Source: Saprospira sp. CCB-QB6 (GTDB lineage: Bacteria; Bacteroidota; Bacteroidia; Chitinophagales; Saprospiraceae). From it: a stretch of DNA of 64,000 nucleotides. The notes beneath the pieces were generated by a model. The model searched no databases. It saw only the letters and a list, made by a program, of their open reading frames with translations, and was not told the origin of the DNA. Below, piece by piece: positions 4,092 to 62,997 of this stretch; the first letter of the stretch is position 1; each line of letters begins with the position of its first letter. The stretch spans positions 806,001 through 870,000 of the forward strand of contig NZ_CP116808.1 in assembly GCF_028464065.1 (NCBI RefSeq), given 5' to 3'. The translations under genes and the position numbers were made by a program.

Positions 4092-4240
4092 GGGCCTCCG
4101 CAGCAAAGCTGCGGCGCTACGTTGCGGGGCTCGCTATTCGCTCGGCCCTTCAGCGCTACGCGCTTCGGTCTGGCCTTCGGCCACCCCTCCACATCGCTAG
4201 GCCAGTCGCTTCGCTCCTTTGCGGGCGCTACGCGCCCTGC
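4092..4240 (+). repeat. Family A element, copy A1 (between murC and ftsQ)
   Basis: It begins at TTTTTGGGCC and carries, in order, the hairpin CCGCAGCaaaGCTGCGG, the linker GCGCTACGTTGCGGGG, the core GCTCGCTATTCGCTCGGCCC, the variable hairpin AGCGCtacGCGCT, GGTCTGGCCttcGGCC and CATCGCTAGGCC, then a final GGGCGCtacGCGCCC hairpin. It occupies most of the 348-bp gap between murC and ftsQ and is antisense to the cluster. The rest of the gap (4241-4401) is AT-rich with only weak hairpins. Confidence 0.85.
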
Positions 4241-4401
4241 TACATCTTTTGGACCAAAATAAGCTGCTTTAACAAAAAGCACTTGTCTGTCCCAAAGCAA
4301 AAAAACTTTTTCGCCTATTTAAACGCTAAAAGATAGCGTAAAACTTTGGCCTAAACAACGGCTTTCCGCAAAAAATTCCGTTTTCTTTAACTCAAAAAAT
4401 T

Positions 4402-5763
4402 TTATTCGGCTTTACCATAAATTTCTTGGGCTATTTTTGGCACTAAAGCCCCTATATCGCCAGCTCCCAGACTTAACAAAAGCGCTGGCGGCGCTTGGCC
4501 CAATTCTACTAGCAATTCCGCCTTGCTCACTAACTTTTTTTCGCTTAGTTGCATGCGGGCCAAAAGGGCCACAGAATCAATACCCTCTATGGGCTCTTCT
4601 CGAGCTGGATAAATATCTAATAAGTAGAGCTGGTCCAAGCCATCCAAAGCCGCAGCAAAACCATCCATAAAGTCTCTCGTTCGACTAAATAAATGCGGCT
4701 GAAATATGCCTACCAATTTTCGATTAGGAAAAAGACTGCGAGCGGTCCGTATGGCCGCTTTTAATTCGGTGGGATGATGCGCATAATCATCAATGAATAC
4801 TTTGTTGGGCTGCTTGACCACCCACTCAAAGCGGCGCCAAATTCCTCTAAAACTGCGCAAGCCTTGTCGAATTTGCTCTTCTGTAACGCCCAATTCTAAA
4901 GCCACGGCTATAGCAGCCAAAGCATTTTCTACATTATGACGGCCTGGCAAAGAGAAATTGAGGTCCTCCCAGAATCGCTCTGCTAGTTGTGCGTCAAAAA
5001 CGAAGTTGGGGGCCTGTGCCCGAATCCGGCTCGCCTGATAATCGGCGGATTGGCTGGCGCTATAATAGGCTACCTTAGCGCTTAAATCGGCCAGTTTTAG
5101 CTCGGTTCCACGGGCCAAAAAAAGCTGCTTGCTGCAAAGTGCTGCAAACTCATTAAAGCTATCGAGTAGTTGAGTATGCTCTCCATAAATATCTAGATGG
5201 TCCGCATCCGTAGAGGTGATAATGCCAATTTCTGGACGCAGGTGCAAAAAGGAGCGATCAAATTCATCAGCCTCTAAAACCACCCAATCCGAACTGCCAG
5301 CCACAAAGTTGCTTCCTAAATTGTTGGCGATCCCGCCCAAAAAAGCAGTACAATCAATTCCTCCCGTTCTGAGCAAATGGGTCAAAATAGAAGAGGTGCT
5401 GGTTTTGCCATGCGTGCCCGCCACGGCAATGCTCCGCCGCTCTCTAGAAATTAGGCCCAAAAGCTCAGAGCGCTTGAGCAAAGGCGTAGCTGCCGCCTGA
5501 AAATATTGTAGTTCGCTATTTTTGGCGGGAATAGCGGGCGTATATACGGCTAAATCTATATCTGTTGGAATTTGATCGGCTTGCTCTGTATAATGAATTT
5601 GCATGCCTTCTTCGACCAACTTTTTGGTTAGGGCCGTTTCAGTTTTATCATAGCCCAAAACTTGGGCACCCAAATAATTGAAATAGCGGGCTAGGGCACT
5701 CATCCCAATTCCACCAATTCCAACAAAATAGATCTTCTTAATAGAGGCTAAGGCTAATGCCAT
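4402..5763 (-). CDS. murC: UDP-N-acetylmuramate--L-alanine ligase
   Basis: ATP-dependent cytoplasmic ligase that adds L-Ala to UDP-MurNAc, the first amino-acid step of peptidoglycan synthesis. The N-terminal Rossmann motif is FVGIGGIGMSALA. The Mur ligase P-loop is GTHGKTSTSS near residue 113, and the central motif 'LEADEFDRSFLHL' and later 'FIDDYAHHPTE' are characteristic of MurC. I place the start at the ATG at 5763 (453 aa). A TTG 36 nt upstream would extend the frame toward the neighbouring repeat without adding homologous residues. It lies between murG and ftsQ, with family A copies on both sides. Confidence 0.97.
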   Translation of the reverse strand: MALALASIKKIYFVGIGGIGMSALARYFNYLGAQVLGYDKTETALTKKLVEEGMQIHYTEQADQIPTDIDLAVYTPAIPAKNSELQYFQAAATPLLKRSELLGLISRERRSIAVAGTHGKTSTSSILTHLLRTGGIDCTAFLGGIANNLGSNFVAGSSDWVVLEADEFDRSFLHLRPEIGIITSTDADHLDIYGEHTQLLDSFNEFAALCSKQLFLARGTELKLADLSAKVAYYSASQSADYQASRIRAQAPNFVFDAQLAERFWEDLNFSLPGRHNVENALAAIAVALELGVTEEQIRQGLRSFRGIWRRFEWVVKQPNKVFIDDYAHHPTELKAAIRTARSLFPNRKLVGIFQPHLFSRTRDFMDGFAAALDGLDQLYLLDIYPAREEPIEGIDSVALLARMQLSEKKLVSKAELLVELGQAPPALLLSLGAGDIGALVPKIAQEIYGKAE

Positions 5764-5801
5764 GATTCGTTTTTTATTAGGTGTAAGAAGTAGGTCCAAA
5801 T

Positions 5802-5919
5802 GGCCTAGCGATGTGTAGGGGTGGCCGAAGGCCAGACCGAAGCGCGTAGCGCTGAAGGGCCGAGCGAATAGCGAGCCCCGAAACGTAGCGCCGCAAGGCG
5901 AAGCCGCAGCGGAGGCCCC
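5802..5919 (-). repeat. Family A element, copy A2 (between murG and murC)
   Basis: Reverse-oriented copy with CGATGTG end, GGCC-hairpin, variable hairpin AGCGCtacGCGCT, the full core and the GGAGGCCCC edge. The GGGGC edge lies 8 nt after the murG stop codon, in sense with murG. It fills nearly the whole murG-murC gap. Confidence 0.85.
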
Positions 5920-5927
5920 AAAAAATA

Positions 5928-10863: not shown

Positions 10864-11008
10864 GGGGCTGCCCCTCGCTTCGCTCGGGTCGGGCTGTTTC
10901 GCAGCTCGCTGATCGCTCGGCCCTTCGCTTTTTTTCGCTTTGCTCAAAAAAGCTCGGTCTGGCCTGCGGCCACTGCTGTCCATCCCTCAGCCAAGGCGCT
11001 GCGCGCCT
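10864..11008 (+). repeat. Family A element, copy A3 (between the LRR gene and mraY)
   Basis: Forward copy of the GGGGCTGCCCC subtype with GGGTCGGGCTG, a core variant reading GCTGATCGCTCGG, and a variable hairpin slot here made of a T run and an A run around TTCGCTTTGCTC. GGTCTGGCCtgcGGCC and CATCCCTCAGCC follow. It is antisense to the surrounding minus-strand genes. Confidence 0.85.
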
Positions 11009-12082: not shown

Positions 12083-12118
12083 CTTGGTTAATTTTGGAGT
12101 TAAGGACAGGCGGTTAAT

Positions 12119-12391
12119 TTTATGAGGGTTTCAACCCTCATTCATAGATCATTGCGAAGCAATACTAACTGTTGTATGGCTGCTGGTTTTAACCTGCAGC
12201 CACAGCTAGCAGGCGGCGAAGCCGCCGCAGGCAAAGGCCAAATAAAAGCCCTGCCACTTCTATCCTTTGCTTTAATTTCCTGCTATTCTGCGTTATTTTT
12301 CTCCCCCATAGCTACGGCTATGCCTTTAAAAAATGCCTTGACTAGCCTGAAATTTTTATCAAAGGATGGCCGAAGCGCAGAACTTCCATTC
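12119..12391. repeat. Composite of family B hairpins and a family D module
   Basis: Non-coding. It holds the B hairpin GAGGGTTTCAACCCTC (12123 on), a TTGCGAAGCAATAC hairpin, CTGCtggttttaacctGCAG, a GGCGGCgaaGCCGCC hairpin, and from 12230 to about 12303 a roughly 74-nt D module (GGCAAAGGCC...TATCCTTT...TTAATTT...GCTATTCTG). A second copy of the D module lies at 24149-24220. This fills the 617-bp LRR-murE gap together with A4. Confidence 0.7.
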
Positions 12392-12512
12392 GGCCTAGGG
12401 GCCTGCAAGGGTGCCGCGCAGCGGCAGACCTAGGGCGAAATGAAATGAGCCCGCAGGGCCGAGCAGACCTGCGAGCCCTGAAAGGGCCCGGCCGCCGCAG
12501 GCGGCAGGCCCC
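12392..12512 (-). repeat. Family A element, copy A4 (downstream of murE)
   Basis: Reverse copy of the GGGGCCTGCCGCC subtype with core variant GCTCGCAGGTCTGCTCGGCCC and a GGGC...GCCC variable hairpin. It is nearly identical over its length to copy A15 at 48302-48422, apart from changes in the hairpin slots. Confidence 0.8.
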
Positions 12513-18305: not shown

Positions 18306-18460
18306 GGGGCCTCCGCCTCGCTATGCTCGTCGGCGCTACGTTGCGCAGCTCGCTATTACTTGCTTCGCTGCGTCGGCTCCCGTTGGTCGGGTCGCTCGGC
18401 CCTGCGCGGGCTGCGCCCGCTGGGTCTGGCCCTAGGGCCACTGCTGCACATCGCTAGGCC
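18306..18460 (+). repeat. Family A element, copy A5 with interrupted core
   Basis: Forward copy with GGGGCCTCCGC, GCGCTACGTTGCGCAGCTCGCTATT, then about 34 extra nt before the core resumes as CGCTCGGCCCTGCG. The GCGGGCtgcGCCCGC hairpin, GGTCTGGCCctaGGGCC and CATCGCTAGGCC follow. It is the only copy here with an insertion in the core. Confidence 0.8.
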
Positions 18461-18528
18461 GCTCATCCTTTGTTTTTCTTTTGGCTGTTTTCTTCGGCGG
18501 TTCATTTCATGAGGGTTTCAACCTACAT

Positions 18529-18658
18529 GGCTTAGGGATGGAAAAGGGGGCGGCGCAGCCGCAGACCTAGCAAAATGAGCGTAGCGAATTTTGCGCAGGG
18601 CCGAGCAGACCTGCGAGCCCTGACACAGCCCGGCCCGCCCGAAGGGCGGGCAAGCCCC
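18529..18658 (-). repeat. Family A element, copy A6
   Basis: Reverse copy of the GGGGCTTGCCCGCC subtype (CCCGCCCttcGGGCGGG hairpin, GGGCTGTGTCAGGGCTCGCAG). The variable hairpin pairs CAAAAT with ATTTTG. It is the near-identical inverted partner of A7 at 23223-23375. Just before it (18510-18526) is a degenerate B hairpin, GAGGGTTTCAACCTAC. Confidence 0.85.
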
Positions 18659-20798: not shown

Positions 20799-22004
20799 AT
20801 GATATTTGGAATAGGGCTTACGATTTTTTTGCTTTCCTCTTTTGCCGTGGTGTACACTTATGTACTCTACCCTCTTTTGCTGCGCATTTTGGGCCAAGGT
20901 AAAGGACTAAAAGGAGCAGTTTACTCTGCAGAAGATTCTGAGCTCCCTATTGTGGCCGTGCTCATGGCCGCTCATAATGAAGAGCTAGTTATTGAGCAAA
21001 AGATGCAACAGCTATTAGCAGCCCAATATCCAAAGCAAAAGCTGCATATTTACCTAGGTTCTGATTGTTCCACAGATGCCACAAATGCTATTCTGCAAGC
21101 CTATGCAGAGCAATATCCAGAACGGGTCCATTTTTTCCCCTTCCAAGAGCGACAAGGCAAACCCGCAATCATCAACCAATTAGCTGAAGCCGCCCAAAAA
21201 CAATCGGCTGAAGTGCTACTGATTACCGATGCTAACGTGATGCCTCAGCCCAAGAGCATTTACGAGCTGCTCAAACATTTTAAGCAAGAGGATATTATCT
21301 TGGTGGATAGCAATATTCAGCATTATGATAGTGAGGCAGAGGGGATTGGCCGCAATGAACAGGGTTACATTTCTCAAGAAGTACAAACTAAATATAGAGA
21401 GGGCGTCATTTGGGGCCGAACACTAGGTCCATTGGGAGGCTTTTTTGCTTTGCGAGCCAGCCACTTCTCCCCTATTCCCAAAGGCTATTTAGTCGATGAC
21501 TTTTATTGGGCCATGAAGGCCTTTGAACAGGGCGGACGGGCCATTAGCGAGCTCAAAGCCATTTGTCTAGAAGATGTATCAGGCAATTTGGCCGGAGAAT
21601 TCCGCCGAAAGGTCCGCATAGCCAGCGGCAATTATAAGAACCTAGCCACCTTTAAGCATTTACTCTTGCCCCAATGGGGAAGTTTGGCCTTTGTTTTTTG
21701 GTCCCATAAGGTCCTGCGTTGGCTAGGCCCTGTTTTTATGTTGTTAAGTTGGAGCAGTTTAGCCCTGCTCAACCTACTAGATGACAACTTAATTTGGCTC
21801 CTCTTGTTTACAGCACAGAACCTATTATTCTTTATTGTTCCATTGCTCGATTGGCTATTAGAGCAAATGGGCATACATCAGAAGTACCTGCGGTACATCC
21901 GATATTTTTTAGCCATGAATATTGCCCTAGTGAAGGGATTTATCAACTATATAAAAGGAGTCAAAACCAATGTCTGGCAACCAACAAAACGAAAGCTTGG
22001 ATAG
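20799..22004 (+). CDS. Membrane-bound family 2 glycosyltransferase
   Basis: One N-terminal transmembrane helix precedes a GT-A catalytic domain of family GT2 and at least two to three C-terminal membrane helices ([39 protein letters not shown]). Motifs seen are '[16 protein letters not shown]' for the nucleotide-binding start, '[11 protein letters not shown]', '[10 protein letters not shown]' as the DxD-like metal site, and '[15 protein letters not shown]' as the ED-like base region. The overall build resembles processive or polysaccharide-assembly transferases, but acceptor and sugar cannot be told. Its 3' end overlaps ribBA by 35 nt, so the two are co-transcribed although functionally unrelated. 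Confidence 0.88.
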
Positions 22005-23217
22005 AAAACTGGATAGTATTGAAGCTGCCATTCAGGATATCCGCGATGGAAAAATCATTATCGTCGTTGATGATGAGGACCGCGAAAACGAAGGAGATTT
22101 TATTTGCGCAGCAGAAAAAGTAACTCCAGAACTGGTCAACTTTATGGCCACACACGGAAGAGGACTAATCTGTACGCCACTAACCGAAGACCGTTGTAAA
22201 GAGCTTAACCTTAAGCCTATGGTGCAAACCAATACTTCGCATCATGAAACGGCCTTTACCATTTCTGTCGACCTGATTGGCCATGGCTGTAGCACAGGAA
22301 TCTCTGCCTACGATCGCTCTACCGGAATTCGCTTGCTGACCGATCCCAACACTAGCTGGACCGACTACGCCCGCCCAGGCCATATCTTTCCCCTTATTGC
22401 TAAAGATGGTGGCGTTTTGCGCCGCGCTGGACATACCGAAGCTGCTGTAGATCTAGCCCGCTTGGCTGGCTTGGCGCCCGCTGGCGTTTTGGTCGAAATC
22501 CTCAATGAAGACGGAACAATGGCCCGCCTACCCGATTTACTAAAAGTGGCCGAACAGTTCGACCTAAAAATCATCTCGATTGCCGACTTGATTAAATACC
22601 GAGTAGAAAACGAAAAATTGGTAGAGCGCCTTATCGATGTGCAAATGCCTACCGAATATGGCGATTTTCAATTGATCGCCTTTGAAGATAAAACCAGAAA
22701 TGAAACGCATTTAGCCCTCAAAAAAGGCGACTGGAAAGCCGATGAGCCCGTCTTGGTTCGGGTCCACTCTTCTTGCCAAACAGGCGATATCTTGGGCTCT
22801 TTGCGCTGCGATTGTGGCCCCCAACTGCATGCAGCCATGAAACAAATTGAAGCCGAAGGCAAAGGACTTTTGCTCTATATTATGCAAGAGGGCCGCGGCA
22901 TTGGTCTACTCAATAAGCTCAAGGCCTACAAACTACAAGAGCAGGGCTATGATACCGTAGAAGCTAACCTGATGCTCGGCTTCAAAGCAGATGAACGCGA
23001 TTATGGCATCGGGGCCCAAATCCTCAGAGAACTAAAAATTAGCAAAATGCGCCTGATGACCAACAACCCCACCAAGCGCATTGGCCTGATTGGCTACGGT
23101 CTAGAAATCGTAGAAAATGTAGAGCTCGAAATTGAACCCAACGAACATAATGAGTTCTATCTCTTTACCAAAAGAGACAAAATGGGCCATAATATTCTAG
23201 ATAAGAAGAAGTCCTAG
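21970..23217 (+). CDS. ribBA: Bifunctional DHBP synthase / GTP cyclohydrolase II
   Basis: Catalyses the two entry steps of riboflavin synthesis: ribulose-5-phosphate to dihydroxybutanone phosphate (N-terminal half), and GTP ring opening (C-terminal half, from about residue 215). RibB motifs are '[13 protein letters not shown]' and '[33 protein letters not shown]'. RibA shows the zinc/active-site motif '[21 protein letters not shown]' with its three Cys, 'QEGRGIGL' and '[10 protein letters not shown]'. At 415 aa it is standard. The start at 21970 lies inside the glycosyltransferase gene but has an AAAGGAG ribosome site 9 nt upstream, a strong one for this lineage, which settles it. No FMN riboswitch is visible. 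Confidence 0.97.
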
Positions 23218-23222: not shown

Positions 23223-23375
23223 GGGGCTTGCCCGCCCTTCGGGCGGGCCGGGCTGTGTCAGGGCTCGCAGGTCTGCTCGGCCCTGCGCAAAATTCGCTTT
23301 GCTCATTTTGCTGGGTCTGCGGCTTCGCCGCCCCCTTTTCCATCCCTCAGCCTGCGGGCGCTTCGCGCCCTGTCC
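23223..23375 (+). repeat. Family A element, copy A7 (directly after ribBA)
   Basis: The GGGGC edge lies 5 nt after the ribBA stop, in sense. It contains CCCGCCCttcGGGCGGG, GGGCTGTGTCAGGGCTCGCAG, the variable hairpin CAAAAT...ATTTTG, CGGCttcGCCG, CATCCCTCAGCC and GGGCGCttcGCGCCC. It is near-identical, in inverted orientation, to A6 4.6 kb upstream. Confidence 0.85.
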
Positions 23376-24221: not shown

Positions 24222-24365
24222 GGCCCAGCGCTGCGCAGCGGTGGCCCGAAGGGCCAGACCCAGTTTTTTTGAGCGCAGCGAAAAAAAACGCAGGGCCGAG
24301 CGAAGAGCGAGCCGCGCAGCATAGCGGCGGCCGACCTAGGCGAAGCCTAGCCGGCCGCGGGCCCC
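24222..24365 (-). repeat. Family A element, copy A8
   Basis: Reverse copy whose GGGGC edge lies 8 nt past the stop codon of the minus-strand gene at 24374. The edge module (GGCCGACCTAGG, CCTAGCCGGCCGCGGGCCCC) is shared almost exactly with A16 at 50309-50447. The variable hairpin is a T run/A run stem around GCGCAGCG. Confidence 0.85.
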
Positions 24366-28479: not shown

Positions 28480-31400
28480 ATGACTAGAATTCAGACTTTT
28501 GCATTCTTGCTGTTTAGCCTTTTCTTTTGGCAACAAGCGGGTGCACAAATCTTCTTTACGGAGAATTTTGAGGGTTTAACCGGCAGCAATGGCTTGCCGA
28601 CAAACTGGACAGAATCAGGCTTATCTACGGATGGTATTTATTATGTAGGTGATTCTGCAGATGCTGATGCGGGAGGGTATTGGCCTGTACCCAATCACAC
28701 TCTTTTTGCACAGAGCAACGATGACCTTTGTGATTGTGACAAATCTGAGGATCGACTCATTTTGCCTGTACAGAACTTTGCTACACGTTCAGGTGGGGTT
28801 GAGTTAATTGCAGACTTATACATGGATGGCAATTACGGAAGTACTGGACAGATTGAGATTAGTACCGACGGCGGAAGCAGTTGGGCCCCTATTTATGTTA
28901 TGACTGCAGATTCTCTCTGGCAAAATAATATTACTATTTCGCTTAACGCTTATGCCAATAATAGCAGTGTACTCATTGCTTTTCGGTATAATGATAGTGG
29001 AAGTTGGGCCTCTGGTTTAGGTGTTGACAATGTTCGTTTAAATCAAACAGCTTCTGCTGATGAGCTTTTAATTTCGGATATTTTGCCTGCGGAATACACA
29101 ATAATTCCTGAAAACCAGGCAAGTGCGATTCCTGTAAGTACAACCATTGCCAATATCGGTGGTAATACTGCAGCAACAATCAATATTACGACAAATGTCT
29201 ATGATTTTGCCGCTCCTACTACCCCTATTCAGACCTATAGCAACACAGCAACAAATCTTACAGCTGGTTCTACGACTACGGTTAGCATGGGAGCCTTTAC
29301 ACCTCCTACACAATCAAGCTATATTTTCGAGCACATTATCACAGGTCCTACTGGAAGTACGGCTAATGATACTGCCCGTTATGGCCTAACTATTTCAAAT
29401 AATGAATATGCTCGTGATGCGGGTAGCCCAACAAACCTTGTTGGTGCTGGTACTGGCGCAGTTGCAATTGTTGGTAATCTATATGATATTAGAGCCACTA
29501 CCCAACTAGACTCAGCTTTGTTTTTCTTAGACTTAGATGATACCTATCTTGGAGATACAGTTCGCCTTGTTGTTGTACAAACTACTGCAGGTGTACCTAA
29601 TGGTACTATTCTTGGTCAATCAGCCCCCTATGCTATTACAGCGGCTGACACCACTTCTGGCGGGACAATTTTTGTTCTTCCTATTACAAATACTACTGGT
29701 GGAGCCCTTAGCCTTACCCCCGGCCAATATTTAGTTGGTGTAGAAGAATCAATTACTATGGATGGTTTAGGCCTCCTTTGTGACCCCAATATCTATACAC
29801 CTAATACTGTTTTTGCCAACATTAATGGGGGGGCATTTCAACCACTTAATGACCTAATTACGGCAGGTTTCCCCTACTCTCCTGTTATTCGTCCTTATCT
29901 TAATACAAACTGCACAGTTACAGCAACAGCTAGCGCTACTAACGCTACTTGTACGGCTAGTGATGGTTCTGCTACTGCCACTCCCGCCAATGGTGCTGCA
30001 CCCTACACTTACCTTTGGTCAAACGCTGCAACTACGCAAACAATCAGTGGTTTGGCAGCTGGAACTTATGATGTAACGATTACAGATGCTTCAGGTTGTG
30101 TAGCTACTGCCTCTGCTACTGTTAACCAAACTACAGTTGCTCTTACAGGTACTGCTACAGCAACTAACGCTACTTGTGGAAATGCTAACGGTTCGGCTAC
30201 AGCTACTGTCAGTAATGGTACTGCTCCTTATACCTACAGCTGGAGCAATGGCGCAACTACTGCCACTATTACAGGCCTTATGGCAGGTACTTATAATGTA
30301 ACATTTACTGATGCTAATGGCTGTGAAGGTACAGCTAGCGCTACAGTTAACAGCCCTGCAGGTCCTAGTGCTAGCACTAGCGCTACAGATGCTACTTGTA
30401 CAGCAGCCAACGGTTCGGCTACAGTTACCGCTACTGGTGGTGCTACTCCTTACACTTACCTTTGGTCTAATAACCAAACTACCGCCACAGCTACAGCTCT
30501 AGTAGCAGGCACTTACAATGTTACTGTAACAGACAACAACGGTTGTGCCGTAACTGGTAGCGCCACAGTAAGCAGCACAACAGGTACCGTTAGCGGAACA
30601 ACTTCTAGCATTAACTCTAGTTGTGGTGCAGCCAATGGTTCAGCTACAGTTACCGCTACTGGTGGTGCTACTCCTTATAGCTACAACTGGAGCAATGGCG
30701 AAACTACAGCTACAGCTTCTAACCTTTCTGCTGGCACTTATACAGTTACGATTACCGATGCAAACGGTTGCCAAGGTACTGCTACCGCAACTGTAAGCAA
30801 CCCCAACGCACCTACAGCTACTGCCGCTGTAACTTCTAACTACAACGGATCTGAACTTAGCTGTAACGGTGCTAGCGATGCAGAAGCTACTGTTACTCCT
30901 GCTGGTGGCACTGCTCCTTATACCTATATCTGGTCTAATGGACAAACTACTGCCGCAGCTACAGGACTTGCGGCAGGCAACCAAACTGTAACTGTTACCG
31001 ATAACAACGGCTGTGCCGTAAGCACTATCGTAACCGTTACTGCTCCCGCTCTAGTTGATGCAACTGTTGATATGACAGGTACTATGGACGCCTCTTGCTT
31101 CTCTAACAATGACGGTATGGCAACAATCACAGCCTCTGGTGGAACTCCCGGTTACACTTACGCTTGGTCTAATAATGCCAACACTGCCGCTATCAATAAC
31201 ATCGGCGCAGGTACTTACACCGTTACTGTTACCGATGCTAACGGCTGTACAGATGATGCTACTGTAACTATTTCTCAACCTACAGCTATCGTAAATAGCA
31301 TGGCTGTGACTGACCTTACTTGTAGTGGTAGCGCAGATGGAGCTATCACCGCCAACACTTCTGGTGGATCAGCCCCTTATACCTACAACTGGAGCAATGG

Positions 31401-32007
31401 TGCTACTACTGCTAACCTTACTGCTCTTGCTGCTGGCACTTACACGGTTACAATCTCTGACCTTAACGGTTGCGAATTGGTAGCCAATGCTACTGTTAAC
31501 GCCAATGTTGCTATTACTCTCGATACTACCATTACAGGTACTTCTGTAGTAGGAGCTAGCGACGGAAGCATTGACCTTACCGTAACTGGTGGTACAGCTC
31601 CCTATACTTACAGCTGGTCTAATGGCGCAACTACCGCTAACGTAACTAACTTAGTCGCTGGCCTTTACAGCGTTACTGTAACTGACGCTAACGGCTGTAA
31701 TACTAGCCTCACTGTTAATGTTCCCGATGGCCCCGTTGCTGTTCTAGCCACTAACGCCAATATCAATATTAGCGTATTCCCCAACCCTGTGGAATCTGTA
31801 GCTAAATTGACTATCGAACTTAACAAAGCTAGCGATGTGAAAATCGAATTGAGCAATGCCGCTGGTCAAGTGATCCGTAGCTTCCAAGCTAAACAAGTCC
31901 TTAACCAACAGTTCGATATCGACATGAGTGAATTGCCCGCCGGCGTTTACTTCCTACGTGTTGCCGATCAAGAAGCTAGCAATAGCTACCGCATCAGCAA
32001 AAAGTAA
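28480..32007 (+). CDS. Giant secreted adhesin with eight SprB repeats and T9SS sorting domain
   Basis: 1175 aa. The signal peptide (residues 1-22, ending GAQ) is followed by a MAM/cleaved-adhesin-like jelly-roll domain (FFTENFEGLTGSNGLPTNWTESG ... VDNVRL, about residues 25-190), a 'CARDB-like' and a further beta domain to about 470. Then come eight tandem SprB-type repeats of 73-81 residues, each with C--ANGSAT-T..G.APYTYLWSNG.TTAT...L.AGTYTVTVTDANGC. The end is a type A sorting domain (ISVFPNPVESVAKLTIEL...LPAGVYFLRV). SprB of Flavobacterium is the mobile adhesin of gliding motility, so a role in surface attachment, gliding or prey contact is inferred. Repeats 3 and 4 are almost identical in DNA over about 50 bp. 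Confidence 0.92.
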   Translation: MTRIQTFAFLLFSLFFWQQAGAQIFFTENFEGLTGSNGLPTNWTESGLSTDGIYYVGDSADADAGGYWPVPNHTLFAQSNDDLCDCDKSEDRLILPVQNFATRSGGVELIADLYMDGNYGSTGQIEISTDGGSSWAPIYVMTADSLWQNNITISLNAYANNSSVLIAFRYNDSGSWASGLGVDNVRLNQTASADELLISDILPAEYTIIPENQASAIPVSTTIANIGGNTAATINITTNVYDFAAPTTPIQTYSNTATNLTAGSTTTVSMGAFTPPTQSSYIFEHIITGPTGSTANDTARYGLTISNNEYARDAGSPTNLVGAGTGAVAIVGNLYDIRATTQLDSALFFLDLDDTYLGDTVRLVVVQTTAGVPNGTILGQSAPYAITAADTTSGGTIFVLPITNTTGGALSLTPGQYLVGVEESITMDGLGLLCDPNIYTPNTVFANINGGAFQPLNDLITAGFPYSPVIRPYLNTNCTVTATASATNATCTASDGSATATPANGAAPYTYLWSNAATTQTISGLAAGTYDVTITDASGCVATASATVNQTTVALTGTATATNATCGNANGSATATVSNGTAPYTYSWSNGATTATITGLMAGTYNVTFTDANGCEGTASATVNSPAGPSASTSATDATCTAANGSATVTATGGATPYTYLWSNNQTTATATALVAGTYNVTVTDNNGCAVTGSATVSSTTGTVSGTTSSINSSCGAANGSATVTATGGATPYSYNWSNGETTATASNLSAGTYTVTITDANGCQGTATATVSNPNAPTATAAVTSNYNGSELSCNGASDAEATVTPAGGTAPYTYIWSNGQTTAAATGLAAGNQTVTVTDNNGCAVSTIVTVTAPALVDATVDMTGTMDASCFSNNDGMATITASGGTPGYTYAWSNNANTAAINNIGAGTYTVTVTDANGCTDDATVTISQPTAIVNSMAVTDLTCSGSADGAITANTSGGSAPYTYNWSNGATTANLTALAAGTYTVTISDLNGCELVANATVNANVAITLDTTITGTSVVGASDGSIDLTVTGGTAPYTYSWSNGATTANVTNLVAGLYSVTVTDANGCNTSLTVNVPDGPVAVLATNANINISVFPNPVESVAKLTIELNKASDVKIELSNAAGQVIRSFQAKQVLNQQFDIDMSELPAGVYFLRVADQEASNSYRISKK

Positions 32008-32071: not shown

Positions 32072-32287
32072 GGGGCTGCCCCTTCCGCCGAGTTGAAACT
32101 CAGCGCAAAGCGGTATCGCTTTGCGAAGCGATACAAAATGAGGGTTGAAACCCTCATGAGTTTCCGGTCGGGTCGGGCTGTATCGCAGCTCGCTATTCGC
32201 TCGGCCCTGCGCGGGCTTCGCCCGCTGGGTCTGGCCTACGGCCACTGCTGTCCATCCCTCAGCCTGCGGCGGCTTCGCCGCCTGTCC
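32072..32287 (+). repeat. Family A element, long copy A9
   Basis: Long form. GGGGCTGCCCC is followed by a GAGTTGAAACTC hairpin, a TCGCTTTGCGAAGCGA hairpin and the B hairpin GAGGGTTGAAACCCTC. After these come GGGTCGGGCTG, the core, GCGGGCttcGCCCGC, GGTCTGGCCtacGGCC, CATCCCTCAGCC and GGCGGCttcGCCGCC. A14 and A18 have the same build. Confidence 0.9.
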
Positions 32288-34240: not shown

Positions 34241-34385
34241 CAGGGACGCGCAGCGGCCCGCAGGCCTAGCGATCTGTAGCAGTGGCCGTTAGGCCAGACC
34301 CAGCGGGCGAAGCCCGCGCAGGGCCGAGCGAATAGCGAGCTGCGGAACGTAGCGCCGCAAGGCCGTAGGCCGCAGCGGAGGCCCC
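34241..34385 (-). repeat. Family A element, copy A10
   Basis: Reverse copy with full core, the variable hairpin GCGGGCttcGCCCGC, GGCCtaacGGCC, a CGATCTG end and GGAGGCCCC edge 29 nt after the stop of the minus-strand gene at 34415. Confidence 0.85.
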
Positions 34386-36100: not shown

Positions 36101-36190
36101 GGGTCCTCCGCCTCGCTGCGGTCGTTGAACTGCGGCCTAAAGGCCTTGTTCTGGTCTGGCCTAACGGCCACTGCTACAGATCGCTAGGCC
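36101..36190 (+). repeat. Family A element, truncated copy A11 lacking the core
   Basis: Keeps the GGGtCCTCCGCCTCGCTGCGG edge, GGCCtaaaGGCC, GGTCTGGCCtaacGGCC and GATCGCTAGGCC, but the GCTCGCTATTCGCTCGGCCC core is missing and replaced by TCGTTGAACTGC. It is likely a decaying copy. The remainder of the 330-bp gap up to 36346 is AT-rich and carries the parC promoter. Confidence 0.7.
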
Positions 36191-38947: not shown

Positions 38948-39086
38948 GCAGGCGGCGAAGCCGCCGCAGGCTGAGGGATGGAAAAGGGTGGCCCGAAGGG
39001 CCAGACCCAGCCAGCTTGCTGGCGCAGGGCCGAGCGACCTGCGAGCCCTGACACAGCCCGACCCGCCCAAAGGGCGGGGCAGCCCC
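38948..39086 (-). repeat. Family A element, copy A12
   Basis: Reverse copy with GGCGGCgaaGCCGCC, GGCTGAGGGATGG, the variable hairpin GCCAGCaaGCTGGC, a shortened core (GCTCGCAGGTCGCTCGGCCC), GGGCTGTGTCAGG and GGGGCTGCCCC. The edge lies 8 nt after the stop of the minus-strand gene at 39095. Confidence 0.85.
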
Positions 39087-42245: not shown

Positions 42246-42404
42246 GGGGGCTGCCCCGCCCTGCGGGCGGGTCGGGCTGTTTCGCAGCTCGCTATTCGCT
42301 CGGCCCTGCGCCGCCAAAGGCGGCTGGGTCTGGCCCTTCGGGCCACTGCTGTCCATCCCTCAGCCGGTCGCTGCGCTCCCCTGCGGCGGCCAAGCCGCCT
42401 GTTC
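42246..42404 (+). repeat. Family A element, copy A13
   Basis: Forward copy starting 15 nt upstream of the aldehyde dehydrogenase ATG (antisense to it). GGGGCTGCCCC, GCCCtgcGGGC, GGGCTGTTTCGCAG, the full core, the variable hairpin GCCGCCaaaGGCGGC, GGCCcttcGGGCC, CATCCCTCAGCC and a final GGCGGCcaaGCCGCC. Confidence 0.9.
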
Positions 42405-46454: not shown

Positions 46455-46690
46455 AACAGGCGGCGCAGCCGCCGCAAAGGCGCGAAGCGCCGCGGCTGAG
46501 GGATGGACAGCAGGGCCGCCATCGGCGGCAGCCCCAGCGGCTGCAAGCCGCGCAGGGCCGAGCGAACAGCGAGCTGCGAAACAGCCCGACCCGAGCGAGA
46601 ACTCATGAGGGTTTTAACCCTCATTTTGTATCGCTTCGCAAAGCGATACCGCTTTGCGCTGGGTTTCAACCCGGCGGAAGGGGCAGCCCC
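46455..46690 (-). repeat. Family A element, long copy A14
   Basis: Reverse copy of the long form: GGCGGCgcaGCCGCC, GGCTGAGGGATGG, the variable hairpin GCGGCTgcaAGCCGC, a core variant with GAACAGCG, then B hairpin GAGGGTTTTAACCCTC, TCGCTTCGCAAAGCGA, GGGTTTCAACCC and GGGGCAGCCCC. Its edge lies 8 nt after the cysS stop. It matches A9 and A18 closely over the B/TCGC block. Confidence 0.9.
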
Positions 46691-48301: not shown

Positions 48302-48422
48302 GGGGCCTGCCGCCTTCGGCGGCCGGGCCCTTGCAGGGCTCGCAGGTCTGCTCGGCCCTGCGGGCTCCACTTCGTTTCGCCCTCGGTCTGCCGCTGCGGC
48401 CACCCTTTCAGGCCCCTAGGCC
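48302..48422 (+). repeat. Family A element, copy A15
   Basis: Forward copy, antisense to cysS. GGGGCCTGCCGCCttcGGCGGC, GGGCCCTTGCAGG, core variant GCTCGCAGGTCTGCTCGGCCC, a GGGC...GCCC variable hairpin, GGTCTGCCG and GGCCCCTAGGCC. It is the near twin of A4. The rest of the gap to 48573 is AT-rich, with no gene seen. Confidence 0.85.
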
Positions 48423-48573: not shown

Positions 48574-49818
48574 ATGCAACAGAACTATGTCAAGTCCTTA
48601 TTTGGGGCCCTCTTACTCCTATGCGCTAGCCAGCTCTGGGGACAAACAAATTGTACACTTACCGCCAGCAGCAGCCATACCGAAACTAGCTGTTATGCGG
48701 GCAATGATGGATCGGCTACGGCCCATGCTAGTTCGGGCACAGCACCCTACAGCTATACCTGGTCCGATGGACAAACAACGGCCACAGCCGTCAACCTTAC
48801 TGCTGGTAGCTACAGTGTTACGGTTATGGATGTAAATGGCTGTACCGCCACAACATCCGCTACTATTACATCACCTACAGCTCTTAGTGGGGCCATTAGC
48901 AGTAGTCCAGAAAGCTGTGCAGGCTTAGACGGAACGGCCAGCATCAGCCCTTCGGGAGGAACAGGCTCTTACAGCTATCAATGGTCTAGTGGGCATACTA
49001 GCGCCAGTATTGGCAGCCTCAACTCTGGTAGTTATGAGATTACGTTTACCGATGCTAATGGTTGTAGCAGCATCAGCCAAGCCTTGGTCGGAAATAGCTG
49101 TGCTTCTTGTTCGCTTACAGTGAGTAGCAACCCCATAAATGCCAGTTGTTTTGGCCAAAATGACGGTGCCGCTTCGCTCAATATTAGCTCAGGTTCTGCC
49201 CCTTACCAATACCTTTGGTCTGATGGACAAACAAGCGCAACAGCTAGCAATCTCATGGCCGGTAACTATAATGTTACAGTTATGGATGCAGATGGCTGTA
49301 CCGCCACAACATCCGCTAATATTACATCGCCTACGGCCCTTAGTGTAAACATTGTCAGTAGTCCCGAAAACCTAGGCCATGATGGCTCGGCTAGCGCAAC
49401 AGCCAGCGGCGGAACGCCTCCTTATACCTACCTTTGGTCTGATGGACAAACAACCGCAACAGCCACTAATCTAGCTGCTGGAAACTATACGCTTACAATT
49501 AGCGATGCTAATGCTTGTACTTATAGCAGCAGCACAAACATCGACGCCCCTACTGCAGTATCAACTTATTGGGCCGAAGCATTTAATATTTTTCCCAACC
49601 CCAATTCGGGGAATATGCAACTAGAACTTCGCCTAAACCAAAGCAGCTCTGCAGAGCTACAGATATATAATGTATTGGGTCGCAAAATGTATCAACAAAC
49701 TTTAGAGGGCCAGCAGACTGATCTTAGCCTTTCTTTTGATTGGCCCGCAGGCAACTACTTCCTACAAATAGCTACAGCCGAAGGACAATGGACCAAAAAA
49801 TTTGTCATTCGCCGATAA
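48574..49818 (+). CDS. Secreted SprB-repeat protein with T9SS sorting domain
   Basis: 414 aa. The signal peptide is residues 1-23 (LFGALLLLCASQLWGQ). Four SprB-type repeats of about 76 residues follow directly, each with C---NDGSA-A-ASSGTAPYSY-WSDGQTTATA-NL-AG-Y-VTVMD-NGC. Repeats 1 and 3 are near-identical at the DNA level. Repeat 4 reads PENLGHDGSA and has lost the Cys that the other repeats carry. A type A sorting domain (FNIFPNPNSGNMQLELRL...WPAGNYFLQIATAEG) closes the protein. It is a smaller relative of the adhesin at 28480, without its N-terminal domains. Cell-surface adhesion is inferred. Confidence 0.9.
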   Translation: MQQNYVKSLFGALLLLCASQLWGQTNCTLTASSSHTETSCYAGNDGSATAHASSGTAPYSYTWSDGQTTATAVNLTAGSYSVTVMDVNGCTATTSATITSPTALSGAISSSPESCAGLDGTASISPSGGTGSYSYQWSSGHTSASIGSLNSGSYEITFTDANGCSSISQALVGNSCASCSLTVSSNPINASCFGQNDGAASLNISSGSAPYQYLWSDGQTSATASNLMAGNYNVTVMDADGCTATTSANITSPTALSVNIVSSPENLGHDGSASATASGGTPPYTYLWSDGQTTATATNLAAGNYTLTISDANACTYSSSTNIDAPTAVSTYWAEAFNIFPNPNSGNMQLELRLNQSSSAELQIYNVLGRKMYQQTLEGQQTDLSLSFDWPAGNYFLQIATAEGQWTKKFVIRR

Positions 49819-50308: not shown

Positions 50309-50447
50309 CAGGCCCAGCGCTGCGGAGGGGGGGCCGCAGGCCAGACCGAGGGCGAAACGAAGTGGAGCCCGCAGGGCCGAGCAGAACTGCGAGCCCCGCA
50401 GCATAGCGGCGGCCGACCTAGGCAAAGCCTAGCCGGCCGCGGGCCCC
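50309..50447 (-). repeat. Family A element, copy A16
   Basis: Reverse copy with GGCC module, GGGC...GCCC variable hairpin, core variant with GAGCAGAACTGCGAGC, and the CCTAGGC/GCCTAGG edge module shared with A8. GGGGCCC edge faces the lipoprotein gene start 86 nt on. Confidence 0.85.
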
Positions 50448-55322: not shown

Positions 55323-55443
55323 GGGGCCTCCGCTGCGGCCTGCGGCCTTGCGGCGCTACGTTTCGCAGCTCGCTATTCGCTCGGCCCTGCGGCCTAACGG
55401 CCTTGGTCTGCGGCTGCGCCGCACTGCTGCACATCGCTAGGCC
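55323..55443 (+). repeat. Family A element, copy A17
   Basis: Forward copy: GGGGCCTCCGC hairpin, GCGCTACGTTTCGCAG, the full core, the variable hairpin GGCCtaacGGCC, GGTCTG, CGGCtgcGCCG, CATCGCTAGGCC. Degenerate D-like sequence follows to about 55510. Confidence 0.9.
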
Positions 55444-55743: not shown

Positions 55744-55952
55744 GGGCCGAAGGCCCGCAGGCTGAGGGATGGGCAGCAGTGGCCGAAGGCCAGACCCAGC
55801 CGCCTTTGGCGGCGCAGGGCCGAACGATCAGCGAGCTGCGAGACAGCCCGACCCGACCGATAATTCATGAGGGTTTCAACCCTCATTTTGTATCGCTTCG
55901 CAAAGCGATACCGCTTTGCGCTGGGTTTCAACCTAGCGGAAGGGGCAGCCCC
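55744..55952 (-). repeat. Family A element, long copy A18
   Basis: Reverse long form with GGGCCgaaGGCCC, GGCTGAGGGATGG, GGCCgaaGGCC, the variable hairpin GCCGCCtttGGCGGC, core variant GATCAGCGAGC, then GAGGGTTTCAACCCTC, TCGCTTCGCAAAGCGA and GGGTTTCAACC, ending GGGGCAGCCCC. It is 55 nt after the porT-like stop. Confidence 0.9.
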
Positions 55953-59494: not shown

Positions 59495-59501
59495 TTTTTT
59501 T

Positions 59502-59652
59502 GGGGCCTCCGCTGCGGCTTCGCCTTGCGGCGCTACGCTTTGGGGCTCGCTATTCGCTCGGCCCTTCGCCAGCTCCGCTGGCTCGGTCTGGCCCAAAGGC
59601 CACCCCGCCGCATCGCTAGGCCATTTGGCCTACGGCCAGGGCGGCGTTGCCG
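59502..59652 (+). repeat. Family A element, copy A19
   Basis: The GGGGC edge is 7 nt after the MATE stop, in sense. GGGGCCTCCGC hairpin, GCGCTACGCTTTGGGG, the full core, the variable hairpin GCCAGCtccGCTGGC, GGCCcaaaGGCC, CATCGCTAGGCC and a GGGCGGCgttGCCGCCC end that runs into a poly-C tract. Confidence 0.9.
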
Positions 59653-59664: not shown

Positions 59665-59694
59665 AAAAAAGAATTTTTTGTTTTGAACAAAATA

Positions 59695-60156: not shown

Positions 60157-60170
60157 AATATTCTAAGATC

Positions 60171-60212
60171 AGGGGCTCGAACTTTTTTTTTAGTTCGAGT
60201 CCCTATTTTTTT
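60171..60212 (+). terminator. Intrinsic terminator between the paralogous lipoprotein genes
   Basis: AGGGGCTCGAACT pairs with AGTTCGAGTCCCT around an eight-T loop and is followed by seven T. Confidence 0.85.
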
Positions 60213-60313
60213 AAGTAACCAAACAGCTTAAACAGCATTCAATAAAATAAAATTTGGTAGTTTAGCGCACAAGCAAAATAACCCCTGAAATTTGGACCAT
60301 CAAATCTTCAGCA

Positions 60314-60886: not shown

Positions 60887-60890
60887 AAAA

Positions 60891-60917
60891 CGCTAGATAG
60901 CAAATGCTAGCTAGCGC
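60891..60917 (-). terminator. Terminator hairpin serving the small Lys/Cys-rich gene
   Basis: CGCTAG-TAGCA pairs with TGCTA-CTAGCG with one mismatch. On the minus strand it is followed by six T. It lies 50 nt past the stop of the small minus-strand gene at 60968 and supports that gene. Confidence 0.65.
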
Positions 60918-60967
60918 TAAGGGGTAAAGTTATGACTAGAATTTAAACCTTAAAAAAAACGAGCGGC

Positions 60968-61117
60968 CTAGTTTTCGGGGCACTTCTTACAACGTTTGCC
61001 TTTTTTCTTCTTGTATTTTTTACAACACTTTTTTTTGAGCTGAAACTCAATAATAGGTAACTCAAAAAAACCCTGCTTGGGTAGCTCTATGGCTTGTGGA
61101 ATCTGTAACTTTTGCAT
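60968..61117 (-). CDS. Small Lys/Cys-rich protein
   Basis: 49 aa from the ATG at 61117 (MQKLQIPQAIELPKQG...); an alternative ATG would add 15 residues. The C-terminal half is highly basic with four Cys: 'LKKKCCKKYKKKKGKRCKKC'. The two pairs, CC and C-x2-C, could hold zinc or a metal cluster and the many Lys could bind nucleic acid. No signal peptide. A terminator follows on the same strand, which argues for a real transcript. No family recognised, and it may still be spurious. Confidence 0.5.
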   Translation of the reverse strand: MQKLQIPQAIELPKQGFFELPIIEFQLKKKCCKKYKKKKGKRCKKCPEN

Positions 61118-61258
61118 CTTATCAATAGTCAGTATACAAATAGGATCAACTATCGAGAGCAAATATAACCCTTTATTTAGATTTAGTACAGATAAAAACG
61201 ATTTTTAAGCGCTTATTTTGTGTCAAATAGCTGTATTTTGGGCCAAAATCATAAAATT

Positions 61259-61996
61259 ATGCTCTATTTGGTCCCTACACCTATTGGCAACCTAGAAGAT
61301 ATGACCTATCGCTCGGTTCGCATCCTAAAGGAAGTAGATTATATTTTGGCCGAAGACACCCGCAGTTCTCGACCACTTTTGCAGCATTATGCCATTGATC
61401 AGCCACTTTACGCTCATCATGCTCATAATGAGCAAGAAAGTAGCCTACAAGTTGTCAATGATCTCAAAGCAGGCAAAAGTGTGGCCCTTATTTCTGATGC
61501 GGGCACTCCTGGAATTTCTGATCCTGGTTTTTATTTATTGCGGGCCTGTGTGGCAGAAGGTTTGGCCGTAAGTTGTTTGCCAGGGGCCTCGGCGGTTATC
61601 CCCGCTCTTGTTGGTGCTGGCCTCGCCTGTGATCGTTTTCATTTTGAGGGTTTTTTACCACATAAAAAAGGGCGGCAAACCCGCTTAGATTATCTAGCCG
61701 ATTTGCCGAATACCTTTGCGCTTTATGAATCGCCCCATCGTTTAGAAAAATGTTTGGAGCAATTGGCCCAAGTTTGTGGCGAAGAGCGCCAAGCCGTAGT
61801 TTGCCGTGAACTCTCTAAAAAGTTTGAAAGCTTTCATAGAGGTAATTTGGCCGAGCTACAAGCCTTTTTTAAGGCCCAACCCGATAAAGTTCGGGGCGAG
61901 ATTGTGATTGTAGTAGAAGGACAAACCCAAAAGAAAACAAAGAAAGACAAGTACGCTAAATTTAAGAAAGCGCCTAAGCGACCAGAACTTGACTAA
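61259..61996 (+). CDS. rsmI: 16S rRNA 2'-O-ribose C1402 methyltransferase
   Basis: SAM-dependent TP-methylase-fold enzyme that 2'-O-methylates C1402, the same base whose N4 is modified by RsmH (16697-17605). It shows 'LYLVPTPIGNLEDMTYRSVRILKEVDYILAEDTRSSRPLLQHY', 'ALISDAGTPGISDPGFYLLRACVAEGL', 'CLPGASAVIPALVGAGLACDRFHFEGFLP' and 'YESPHRLEKCL', all RsmI signatures. 245 aa from the ATG at 61259. It ends in a Lys-rich tail (KTKKDKYAKFKKAPKRPELD) that many RsmI proteins lack. The last 4 bases overlap the end of the convergent exonuclease gene. Confidence 0.96.
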   Translation: MLYLVPTPIGNLEDMTYRSVRILKEVDYILAEDTRSSRPLLQHYAIDQPLYAHHAHNEQESSLQVVNDLKAGKSVALISDAGTPGISDPGFYLLRACVAEGLAVSCLPGASAVIPALVGAGLACDRFHFEGFLPHKKGRQTRLDYLADLPNTFALYESPHRLEKCLEQLAQVCGEERQAVVCRELSKKFESFHRGNLAELQAFFKAQPDKVRGEIVIVVEGQTQKKTKKDKYAKFKKAPKRPELD

Positions 61997-62739
61997 CTAT
62001 CGGCACTTTCAAAAATGAGGGCCAAAGGATCTTCTAGCATAAAACGCAATAGCACTTGAGCCGTAGCAAAAACATCTTTTTTGCAATAGACCTCAATACG
62101 GTCCAAATCGCCATCTTCCCAATAACTTCGGCCCACTTGGCTGCCATCAATACCATCTTTGGGCGTGGGAATACCAAAAATACCGCAAAGCAATTTGAGC
62201 GAAGTATAGGCCTTATAATCCCCAAATTTCCAGAGCGTCATAGTATCTAAAAAATGGTGGAGTTCCCAAGGTTTTTTGCCATAAATTTGAAGGGGAGCGG
62301 GCAAGGGTAAGCCTTGTACAATCAGGCGGCGACAGATATAAGGCATATCAAACTCTTTGATATTATGGCCACAAATATACTGCTGTCCTTTGCGCTGAAA
62401 ATACTTGCTGAGCATAGCGGAGAAATCTTGGAGTAATGCTTTTTCGTCATCTCCATAAAACGACTTGAGGCGGAGCTTATATTGGCCCGTCTCATTTTTT
62501 ATATATACACCAACCGTAATGCAAACTATTTTGCCAAATTCGGCATAAATACCTGCTTTTTCGGGATAATAATCTGCTGGGCTCATTTTTTCTTCTTCGG
62601 CTAAGCGACGCTGTAAAGCCTCTGCTTTGAGGTCCCAGAGTTTTTGCATGCTAGGGTTAAGGTCCGCATAACTAGCTGCACCAGAAACGGTTTCAATATC
62701 AAGCACTAAGGTATGCTCTAAAATACTTTTGGGTAACAT
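61993..62739 (-). CDS. Predicted 3'-5' exonuclease of the PolB-exonuclease family
   Basis: DEDD-type exonuclease domain protein of 248 aa. The N-terminal ExoI motif is 'TLVLDIETVSG' with Asp and Glu ligands. ExoII lies in 'ICGHNIKEFDMPYICRRL' and ExoIII near 'IEVYCKKDVFATAQVLL'. The long 'PADYYPEKAGIYAEFGKIVCITVGV' stretch and total length match the Bacteroidota family annotated as DNA polymerase B-like 3'-5' exonuclease (PF10108 type). It probably trims or proofreads nucleic acid; the partner is unknown. Convergent with rsmI, with a 4-bp overlap. Confidence 0.9.
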   Translation of the reverse strand: MLPKSILEHTLVLDIETVSGAASYADLNPSMQKLWDLKAEALQRRLAEEEKMSPADYYPEKAGIYAEFGKIVCITVGVYIKNETGQYKLRLKSFYGDDEKALLQDFSAMLSKYFQRKGQQYICGHNIKEFDMPYICRRLIVQGLPLPAPLQIYGKKPWELHHFLDTMTLWKFGDYKAYTSLKLLCGIFGIPTPKDGIDGSQVGRSYWEDGDLDRIEVYCKKDVFATAQVLLRFMLEDPLALIFESADS

Positions 62740-62810
62740 ATATTTTTTATTTTAGGAATAAATTGCCCAGAGGGCTAGGGATTGGGCCAGAAAAAAGCGG
62801 GGACATTTGG

Positions 62811-62997
62811 CCACAACAAGCCCTCAGGGCGCAGTTCGACAACCGAAGGGAGTAACCGATGTGGAGCAGTGGCCGAAGGCCAAATGGCCTAGCGATGTGA
62901 AGGGGTGGCCGAAGGCCAGACCGAGCCAGCTTGCTGGCGAAGGGCCGAGCGAAGAGCGAGCCCCGCAACGTAGCGCCCGCCGCAGGCGGGAGGCCCC
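62811..62997 (-). repeat. Family A element A20 with family C extension
   Basis: 62887-62997 is a reverse family A copy: CGATGTG, GGCCgaaGGCC, the variable hairpin GCCAGCttGCTGGC, core variant GAAGAGCGAGC, GCAACGTAGCG, CCCGCCgcaGGCGGG, GGAGGCCCC. 62811-62886 is a family C unit (ACAACAAGCCCT...TCGACAACCGAAGGGAGTAAC) like that at 28120-28245. GGGG edge faces the TPM-domain gene 52 nt on. Confidence 0.8.

Follow-up and report, generated by a model that had tools for sequence, protein, structure and literature searches.

A high-copy repeat family of Saprospiraceae with a covarying multi-branched fold and fast-changing hairpin slots

Introduction

Integron attC sites are single imperfect hairpins with conserved end boxes, and high-copy structured RNAs of the HEARO type have a conserved fold spread by mobile elements. 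Here, we analyse another folded repeat, found in a stretch of 64,000 nucleotides of Saprospira sp. CCB-QB6 (contig NZ_CP116808.1, G000:C1:806001-870000, in a genome of 4.24 Mb), hereafter the window. Like the bacterial miniature inverted-repeat transposable elements (MITEs), such as Correia/NEMIS, ERIC, RUP and the CerM-associated repeats of Caulobacter, it is short, non-coding, high-copy, intergenic and foldable (as these are described in the cited part of PMC2229807). It also resembles the REPIN and REP-RAYT systems, i.e. repetitive extragenic palindromes (REP) and their associated tyrosine transposases (RAYT), for which the cited sections of PMC3116915, PMC2817692 and PMC3733652 describe hundreds of copies, hairpins, compensatory changes and a proposed single-stranded DNA intermediate.

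We found that the repeat has a covarying multi-branched single-strand fold, and that its slot hairpins turn over fast at conserved Saprospira sites while the element itself stays in place. The family is spread over many genera, and in one of them it is bounded by terminal inverted repeats with 8-bp target-site duplications.

Copies in the window and in the genome

An earlier note on the window, made from the letters of the DNA, had described about 20 copies of a repeat built of ordered short linkers with palindromic hairpin slots between them, and had called for a genome-wide collection of copies and a covariance model. Linkers and slots are both present as it described. The core 20-mer occurs in the window 7 times exactly and 13 times at up to 3 mismatches, and 0 times in shuffled sequences (n = 100). 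A covariance model (R1), built from 31 copies all outside the window, gave 20 matches in it (19 full copies, all at E <= 1.1e-10, and 1 remnant), and the outermost of these lie at the ends of the span given in the note. Every copy below is a match to model R1, and the strand is always the folded strand.

4091..4203, strand -: element copy (103.3 bits, E 2.3e-20)
5802..5919, strand +: element copy; the orthologous site of S. grandis Lewin has the same frame with other slot hairpins
10864..10992, strand -: element copy of type 2 (GGCTG/CAGCC; type by eye)
12392..12512, strand +: element copy of type 4 (type by eye)
18306..18460, strand -: element copy, core with extra sequence
18529..18658, strand +: element copy
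23223..23352, strand -: element copy, beginning right after the stop codon of the open reading frame (ORF) 21970-23217
24222..24365, strand +: element copy of type 3 (type by eye)
32141..32264, strand -: element copy; the preceding T-run is part of a terminator-like hairpin, and the match spans only part of a long slot 1
34263..34385, strand +: element copy whose slots differ among the orthologues in three strains
36101..36190, strand -: degenerate element remnant (E 0.044), at a site compared across strains
38969..39086, strand +: element copy
42247..42365, strand -: element copy, type 2 here; in three other strains the site has type 1
46494..46621, strand +: element copy whose long slot 1 contains a REP-like GAGGGTT..AACCCTC module
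48302..48422, strand -: element copy of type 4 (type by eye)
50311..50447, strand +: element copy of type 3 (type by eye)
55323..55443, strand -: element copy
55760..55883, strand +: element copy; the preceding T-run is part of a terminator-like hairpin
59502..59622, strand -: element copy
62886..62997, strand +: exemplar element copy (108.3 bits, E 1.8e-21)

The same model retrieved 102 copies (E <= 1e-6) in 344 kb of this genome, which extrapolates to about 1,240 in the chromosome. The exact core is found 325 times in the genome, near-equally in forward and reverse orientation (165 and 160), and its reversed control 0 times. Six genomes of the genus were searched: there are 139 exact cores in a second Saprospira genome (G449), and cores found by fuzzy matching occur once per 3.0-3.4 kb in the parts of four Saprospira genomes that were examined. 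With a length of about 120 nt and a spacing of one per 3.4 kb, the elements would account for 3-4% of the genome. We parsed 312 fuzzy cores, omitted 66 without a recognisable 3' end and used the other 246. Slot A holds a perfect hairpin of at least 4 bp in 191 of 242 copies, compared with 54/242 after a single shuffle of the slot letters; in the remaining 51 the loop is longer or imperfect, or the copy is mis-parsed.

Smaller modules accompany some copies. The REP-like module lies at 46592-46624, 55854-55886, 12109-12141 and 18496-18528 of the window; it is nested in slot 1 of some copies, with GGTATCGCTTTGCGAAGCGATAC beside it, and its long version at the 46555 site is retained in 3/4 strains. 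Another nested module reads CGGTTACTCCCTTCGG..GTCGAACTGCG..CTTGTTGTSG and has a hairpin that varies (locus L053, 640-960; window, about 62811-62858); it can replace a P3 arm (see below) or follow the 3' end of the element. Apart from the repeat family, a DNA repeat recurs about every 220-240 bp (about 75 aa) in the window genes at 28480-32007 and 48574-49818, both within each gene and between the two.

A covarying multi-branched fold

The linkers exist but are not independent of one another: GCGCTACG..CATCGCTAGGCC and GGGCTGT..CATCCCTCAGCC are opposite sides of covarying helices, with at least five linker-pair types by eye. On the folded strand, the reverse of the one that the note had written, the element reads GGCCTA-GCGATGTG-..-core GGGCCGAGCGAATAGCGAGC-..-AACGTAGCG-slot 1-AGGCCCC. 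The data support an architecture of three nested long-range helices (P1, P3 and P4), together with a core hairpin that is conserved and three hairpin slots that vary. In the proposed fold, of about 110-130 nt in Saprospira, P1 would close a junction from which slot 1 and the long helix P3 emerge. P3 would continue into P4, and P4 would open into an inner junction bearing slot B, the core hairpin and P5, whose loop contains slot A. The exemplar copy illustrates these parts, on the + strand throughout; percentages are paired cells in the cross-genus alignment described below.

62886..62890 / 62991-62995, strand +: P1 arms GGCCT / AGGCC (helix 1; 92.7% of cells paired, 5/5 pairs changed on both sides)
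62892..62898 / 62968-62974, strand +: P3 arms, which include G.A and T.G pairs when read on this strand (helix 2; 80.1% paired)
62902..62905 / 62961-62964, strand +: P4 arms (99.4% of cells paired across genera)
62907..62917, strand +: slot B hairpin GGCC-GAA-GGCC, with a GNA loop
62925..62938, strand +: slot A hairpin, within the P5 loop
62942..62961, strand +: conserved core, the reverse complement of GCTCGCTCTTCGCTCGGCCC
62976..62990, strand +: slot 1 hairpin CCCGCC-GCA-GGCGGG, between P3 and P1

The arms of P1, P3 and P4 lie about 55-100 nt apart in this copy. P1 occurs as GGCCT/AGGCC, GGCTG/CAGCC and GGCCC/GGGCC, and as GGACC/GGTCC in another genus. To build the alignment, 48 Saprospira copies were selected, of which 36, with 7 from other genera, entered alignment A1; A2 consists of 31 of these 43, omitting 8 of the GGCTG type (set one column off by MAFFT), L157, L168:14170, the window copy at 48302 and L036. 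P3 covaries in the 31-copy alignment, e.g. C-G 25 and G-C 6 at one pair and T.G 16, T-A 9 and C-G 6 at another. P4 consists of three variable pairs and one near-fixed G-C. Its letters were picked by sequence anchors only, and its three variable pairs are fully Watson-Crick in 224 of the 246 parsed copies; the 22 misses include GGG/CGC (6) and GGG/TGC (5). On the first 147 parsed copies, 132 were fully Watson-Crick, against a mean of 48.5 and a maximum of 70 in 1,000 shuffles.

The nested arms follow each other and not what lies between them. Adjusted mutual information (147 copies) was 0.85 between the two arms of P3 and 0.78 between those of P4, while the left arm of P4 shared only 0.09 with the core, 0.12 with slot A and 0.10 with slot B. 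For example, all 71 copies with a GCA left arm have TGC on the right, despite 65 different inner combinations. These results bear on an explanation without selection, in which palindromes are perfected by template switching during replication (quasi-palindrome correction) and spread by gene conversion. Since nested partners are matched while the intervening sequence is shuffled, palindrome-writing by itself is insufficient for P1, P3 and P4, whose arms are far apart.

The same frame is found across genera, which again does not fit such a process. The cross-genus set has 42 matches (41 distinct) from 40 of 41 searched loci. In this alignment, which was fitted to the model and whose cells are sequences and not events, 88.6% of cells are paired (shuffles: 65.6%, standard deviation 0.8), covariation is 0.490 (shuffled: 0.146; slid controls: 0.041-0.071), and 33 of 35 pairs changed on both sides. 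When P4 was picked by anchors only, 27 of 36 copies were fully paired (shuffle mean 4.7, maximum 11), or 30 of 36 counting G.T (mean 9.2, maximum 16), with 5/41 copies unparsed and several mis-parsed by eye. The earlier note had offered selected structure or a mechanism that writes palindromes. The first is supported by covariation beyond shuffled and slid controls, in the slots and also in long-range helices that the note had not seen; the second cannot alone explain P1, P3 and P4 or the conservation across genera, and the repeat derives from a mobile element (see below).

Hairpin turnover at orthologous sites

We compared orthologous loci between strains, as the note had proposed. Among 383 anchored comparisons, which count reciprocals twice, 354 keep the element in the same orientation, 25 lack the core and 4 have it inverted; 46 further ones were too far apart. 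By eye, several of the cases without core have anchors inside the element or false cores in genes, and one resembles a genuine insertion: it follows a stop codon in the genome of the window, and its ends are indistinct.

The orthologue pairs comprised 129 parsed and 52 unparsed ones. Of the 129 comparisons, 106 share the frame type, 81 P4, 31 slot A, 43 slot B, 35 slot 1 and only 6 the whole interior. The frame type is kept less often against DSM 2844 (17/32). When P4 differs (48/129), both versions are paired in 36 of the 48. Even between strains WHT and Lewin, whose flanks are 96.8% identical, slot A is the same in only 14 of 35 comparisons. The 379 slot comparisons, which are not independent events, fall into the following classes (slot A, slot B, slot 1).

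identical: 31, 43, 33
replaced by another hairpin: 42, 60, 29
loop-only difference: 8, 15, 12
both-arm difference: 4, 5, 7
one-arm difference: 3, 0, 6
difference outside the hairpin: 2, 2, 2
no perfect 4-bp hairpin: 39, 4, 32

Palindrome correction without selection finds some support here: both-arm differences that keep the pairing outnumber one-arm ones (16 vs 9 of 379), although part of the 16 are plainly different hairpins of the same length. It would also suit the hypervariable slot-1 loops of the genome described next. Yet replacement of the whole hairpin by another one is commoner (131/379). Taken with the nested helices, this makes the explanation improbable.

A mobile relative and the distribution of the family

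In another genus of Saprospiraceae (genome G488) the core lies in units with terminal inverted repeats. Their ends are imperfect 20-bp sequences (442 pattern matches at up to 2 mismatches; reversed, 0). Ten units were picked for their paired ends among the matches listed, and 10/10 hold the core; 7 of them have exact 8-bp target-site duplications and 3 have one mismatch, while flanks taken at 6, 7, 9 or 10 bp have at least 3 mismatches in all 10. The terminal inverted repeats and the 8-bp duplications indicate that the family derives from a mobile element. One unit (L260) is inserted inside another copy, by eye. Among 16 copies drawn from the best-scoring matches, 99 of 118 core columns show no departure, an unpaired linker base departs in 9/16, and no stretch varies more than the slot-1 loop. 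Together with ten further copies, the 26 (L231-L246 and L251-L260) have 20 distinct slot-1 loops and a mostly constant core, and the slot A/B region comes in at least three versions within the same frame (by eye).

Within Saprospiraceae, 26 of 150 genomes (22 of 112 genera), including that of the window, have a match at E <= 1e-4, in a survey with stricter filters and at most 24 candidates scored per genome. In a sample of the order, 7/198 genomes match, one of them (G591) from another family. An exact core was found in 1/395 genomes of a phylum sample, that of the window. Exact cores also lie on a Lewin plasmid (L074, L113), and an Acidimicrobiales metagenome-assembled genome (L102) has one exact core with no element around it (by eye).

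The repeat could also be a composite of REP palindromes, such as those of bacterial interspersed mosaic elements (BIMEs) or REPINs, that is mobilised by a RAYT (a Y1 transposase), the slots being the REPs. The genome has three Y1 (RAYT-like) transposase genes (L197, L198 and L199; G000:C1 at about 2.877, 3.624 and 3.945 Mb), and by eye each adjoins its own hairpin repeats: GAGGGTTTTAACCCTC; GGGCTGAAGCCCTTGTT; CCTAGGGCCTTGGCCCTAGG. One Y1-associated hairpin type does occur inside slot 1 of some copies. The spacers of REPINs likewise keep their pairing while the sequence changes, according to the cited part of PMC3116915. However, the repeats that adjoin these genes differ from the core element, and the closest cores are several hundred bases off or absent within the loci examined (by eye). 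The relatives are bounded by terminal inverted repeats and 8-bp duplications, which Y1 transposition is not known to make, and a REP is one hairpin, in contrast to the multi-branched fold. On balance, we hold this origin to be unlikely.

The genome has one gene of the RVT_1 family (L200, 826-2523), whose 565-aa frame includes a reverse transcriptase domain, and there is an element on each side of it. We rejected an origin from reverse transcriptase: this sole RVT_1 gene has only as many neighbouring copies as the general density predicts.

Gene context

Of 276 copies, 99 were left unplaced by a simple ORF caller and 177 could be assigned: 53 between convergent genes, 91 between tandem genes (54 with the genes, 37 against) and 33 between divergent genes. 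Hence, no clear orientation rule relative to genes was found in the 177. In genome G489, a copy stands between tRNA genes of an array (L206, 185-291; 11 tRNA matches above cut-off in the stretch).

The repeats could also be gene-end devices, i.e. terminators or stabilisers of messenger RNA kept for the host. The copies are commoner in convergent gaps (53 per 93 available) than in tandem (91 per 237) or divergent ones (33 per 108), which nevertheless also hold copies. The note had taken the first T-run as part of the repeat. It can instead be flank: a terminator-like hairpin ends there in 58 of 285 copies (shuffles: 8%), and a recognised T-run is absent in 27/312. This hairpin favours a role at gene ends, but none was found at the T-run in 227 of the 285 copies. 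Furthermore, the T-run precedes the element, so neither strand of the element ends in a U-run. We consider this function very improbable.

Strand and nature of the folded molecule

The fold that is supported is that of the reverse strand, opposite to the strand on which the note had proposed its structure; the choice of strand is supported, but less firmly than the fold. Odd pairs on the reverse strand are G.A rather than T.C (41 vs 4) and G.T rather than A.C (23 vs 9), with four fixed non-canonical pairs excluded; the alignment behind these counts was itself fitted with an RNA model of the reverse strand. Saprospira slot hairpins have 11 G.T and 3 A.C; the mismatches are few, and most of the forward G.T cases lie upstream of the element, which makes them uninformative on the strand. 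By folding energy, z-scores were lower on the reverse than on the forward strand in 4/4 copies with RNA and DNA parameters alike. With RNA parameters the reverse strand gave -2.02, -2.46, -1.56 and -2.28. In a separate folding of four copies, the forward strand gave -0.29, -3.06, -0.72 and -1.99.

The loops of this strand resemble those of stable DNA hairpins. Among distinct Saprospira triloops (n = 156), 77 are GNA and 3 TNC, and among distinct tetraloops (n = 61), 5 are GNNA, 2 GNRA and 1 TNCG. Other genera have 29 triloops (12 GNA, 1 TNC) and 24 tetraloops (4 GNNA), and a direct scan of the 42 cross-genus copies gave 21 GNA, 1 TNC, 1 GNRA (in L131) and 0 TNCG. In five copies without slot A in the 31-copy alignment, the P5 loop is itself GNA or GNNA (GCA twice, GTA, GGTA and GATA, by eye). 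DNA mini-hairpins with GNA or GNNA loops and G-C stems are described as extraordinarily stable in the cited part of PMC4686876, and that of PMC8373063 says the same of GNNA loops with G-C stems in DNA. Since the loops favour GNA, as in these mini-hairpins, we lean towards single-stranded DNA, rather than RNA, as the acting form.

The main alternative is a structured RNA on the reverse strand, small or cis-acting, that was spread on a mobile element and whose pairing is kept for RNA function. It would account for covariation across many genera, the invariant core and the conserved unpaired linkers, and for the excess of G.T over A.C on one strand. The reverse strand also beats shuffles when folded as RNA in 4/4 copies (z from -1.56 to -2.46), and mostly does not when folded as DNA. 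In contrast, the GNRA and UNCG tetraloops are rare, the copies follow no clear rule of orientation to genes, with 33/177 between divergent ones, and Rfam has no match in the window. The better folding as RNA than as DNA led us to raise our estimate for this alternative slightly, and to lower that for the explanation proposed below by the same small amount. We still regard an RNA as rather unlikely.

Proposed explanation

Our preferred explanation, held tentatively, is an old non-autonomous MITE-like family of Saprospiraceae whose conserved part is a single-stranded fold, likely of single-stranded DNA or a cruciform, with exchange of slots between copies. The folded strand would most likely act as single-stranded DNA or cruciform during the spread of the element, rather than as RNA, and copies with broken pairs may have been purged because it is needed. 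Slot turnover might reflect short-tract exchange, by gene conversion or strand annealing, among the roughly 1,200 copies; conserved linkers would guide it, and breakage of extruded hairpins perhaps starts it. In Saprospira, insertion would have nearly stopped and exchange would now dominate. A more speculative extension, which we think doubtful, is that folded single-stranded DNA elements recombine by sub-structure. Units closed by a stem (a slot, or all that lies inside P4) would be swapped and nested pairs seldom split, and GNA hairpins would serve as the substrate, being extruded and cut, and would at the same time be what is handed on.

Several points weigh against the preferred explanation. 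With DNA parameters the reverse-strand z-scores are -0.56, -2.69, -0.45 and -0.25, so that only 1 of 4 copies folds better than its shuffles. By raw RNA energy neither strand stands out, each being the more stable in 12 of 24 copies, and the odd-pair counts share their strand with the model used for the alignment. Exchange between copies is inferred rather than directly observed. With three Pfam families tried, we found no transposase with these ends in G488: PF00872 and PF12762 had no match, and the ISL3 matches (a 413-aa frame and a fragment) had no such ends in the surrounding 3.7 and 3.1 kb. Saprospira copies show no excess of shared 8-mers (21/240 vs a shuffle mean of 19.5). Finally, an element can insert with 8-bp duplications even if it has no single-stranded fold inside.

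The family is a natural test bed for the preservation of structure rather than sequence. Each strain offers replicate loci where sequence is free but pairing is held, so that selection on structure, gene conversion and palindrome repair become separable by comparing strains. Should DNA be the folded form, the elements would represent one of the few natural single-stranded DNA architectures under selection; should it be RNA, they would be a structured RNA of very high abundance that has no name yet. It is also a caution for annotators, since covariation among paralogous copies can stem from a mobile element.

Comparison with known families

The note knew no named family with this build. Consistent with this, no Rfam match in the window exceeds its gathering score, and a weak-threshold scan of five other loci gave no credible match on the element. 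The only Rfam match overlapping it is HOTTIP_3 in L222 (17.9 bits for a cut-off of 50, E 0.084). We found no description or name of the repeat in the literature searched. With HEARO-type RNAs it shares a conserved fold spread by mobile elements, the difference being that it lacks an Rfam match. It is like integron attC sites in that a folded single strand would matter while the sequence varies; attC sites differ in being single imperfect hairpins with conserved end boxes.

It differs from the REPIN and REP-RAYT systems in that no cognate RAYT was found, in the 8-bp duplications of G488, and in having three slots borne on junctions instead of one hairpin. By eye, a constant GTAG-type REP tag also seems to be missing: the folded strand before slot 1 reads GTAGCG, ATAGCG or CAGCCC according to type. 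We know of no MITE with such a multi-branched build and swappable slots. In G488 the repeat is MITE-like, with terminal inverted repeats that bound the unit and target-site duplications; what sets it apart from MITEs is a multi-branched fold that is kept across genera and whose nested helices covary, together with the replacement of slot hairpins at fixed sites.

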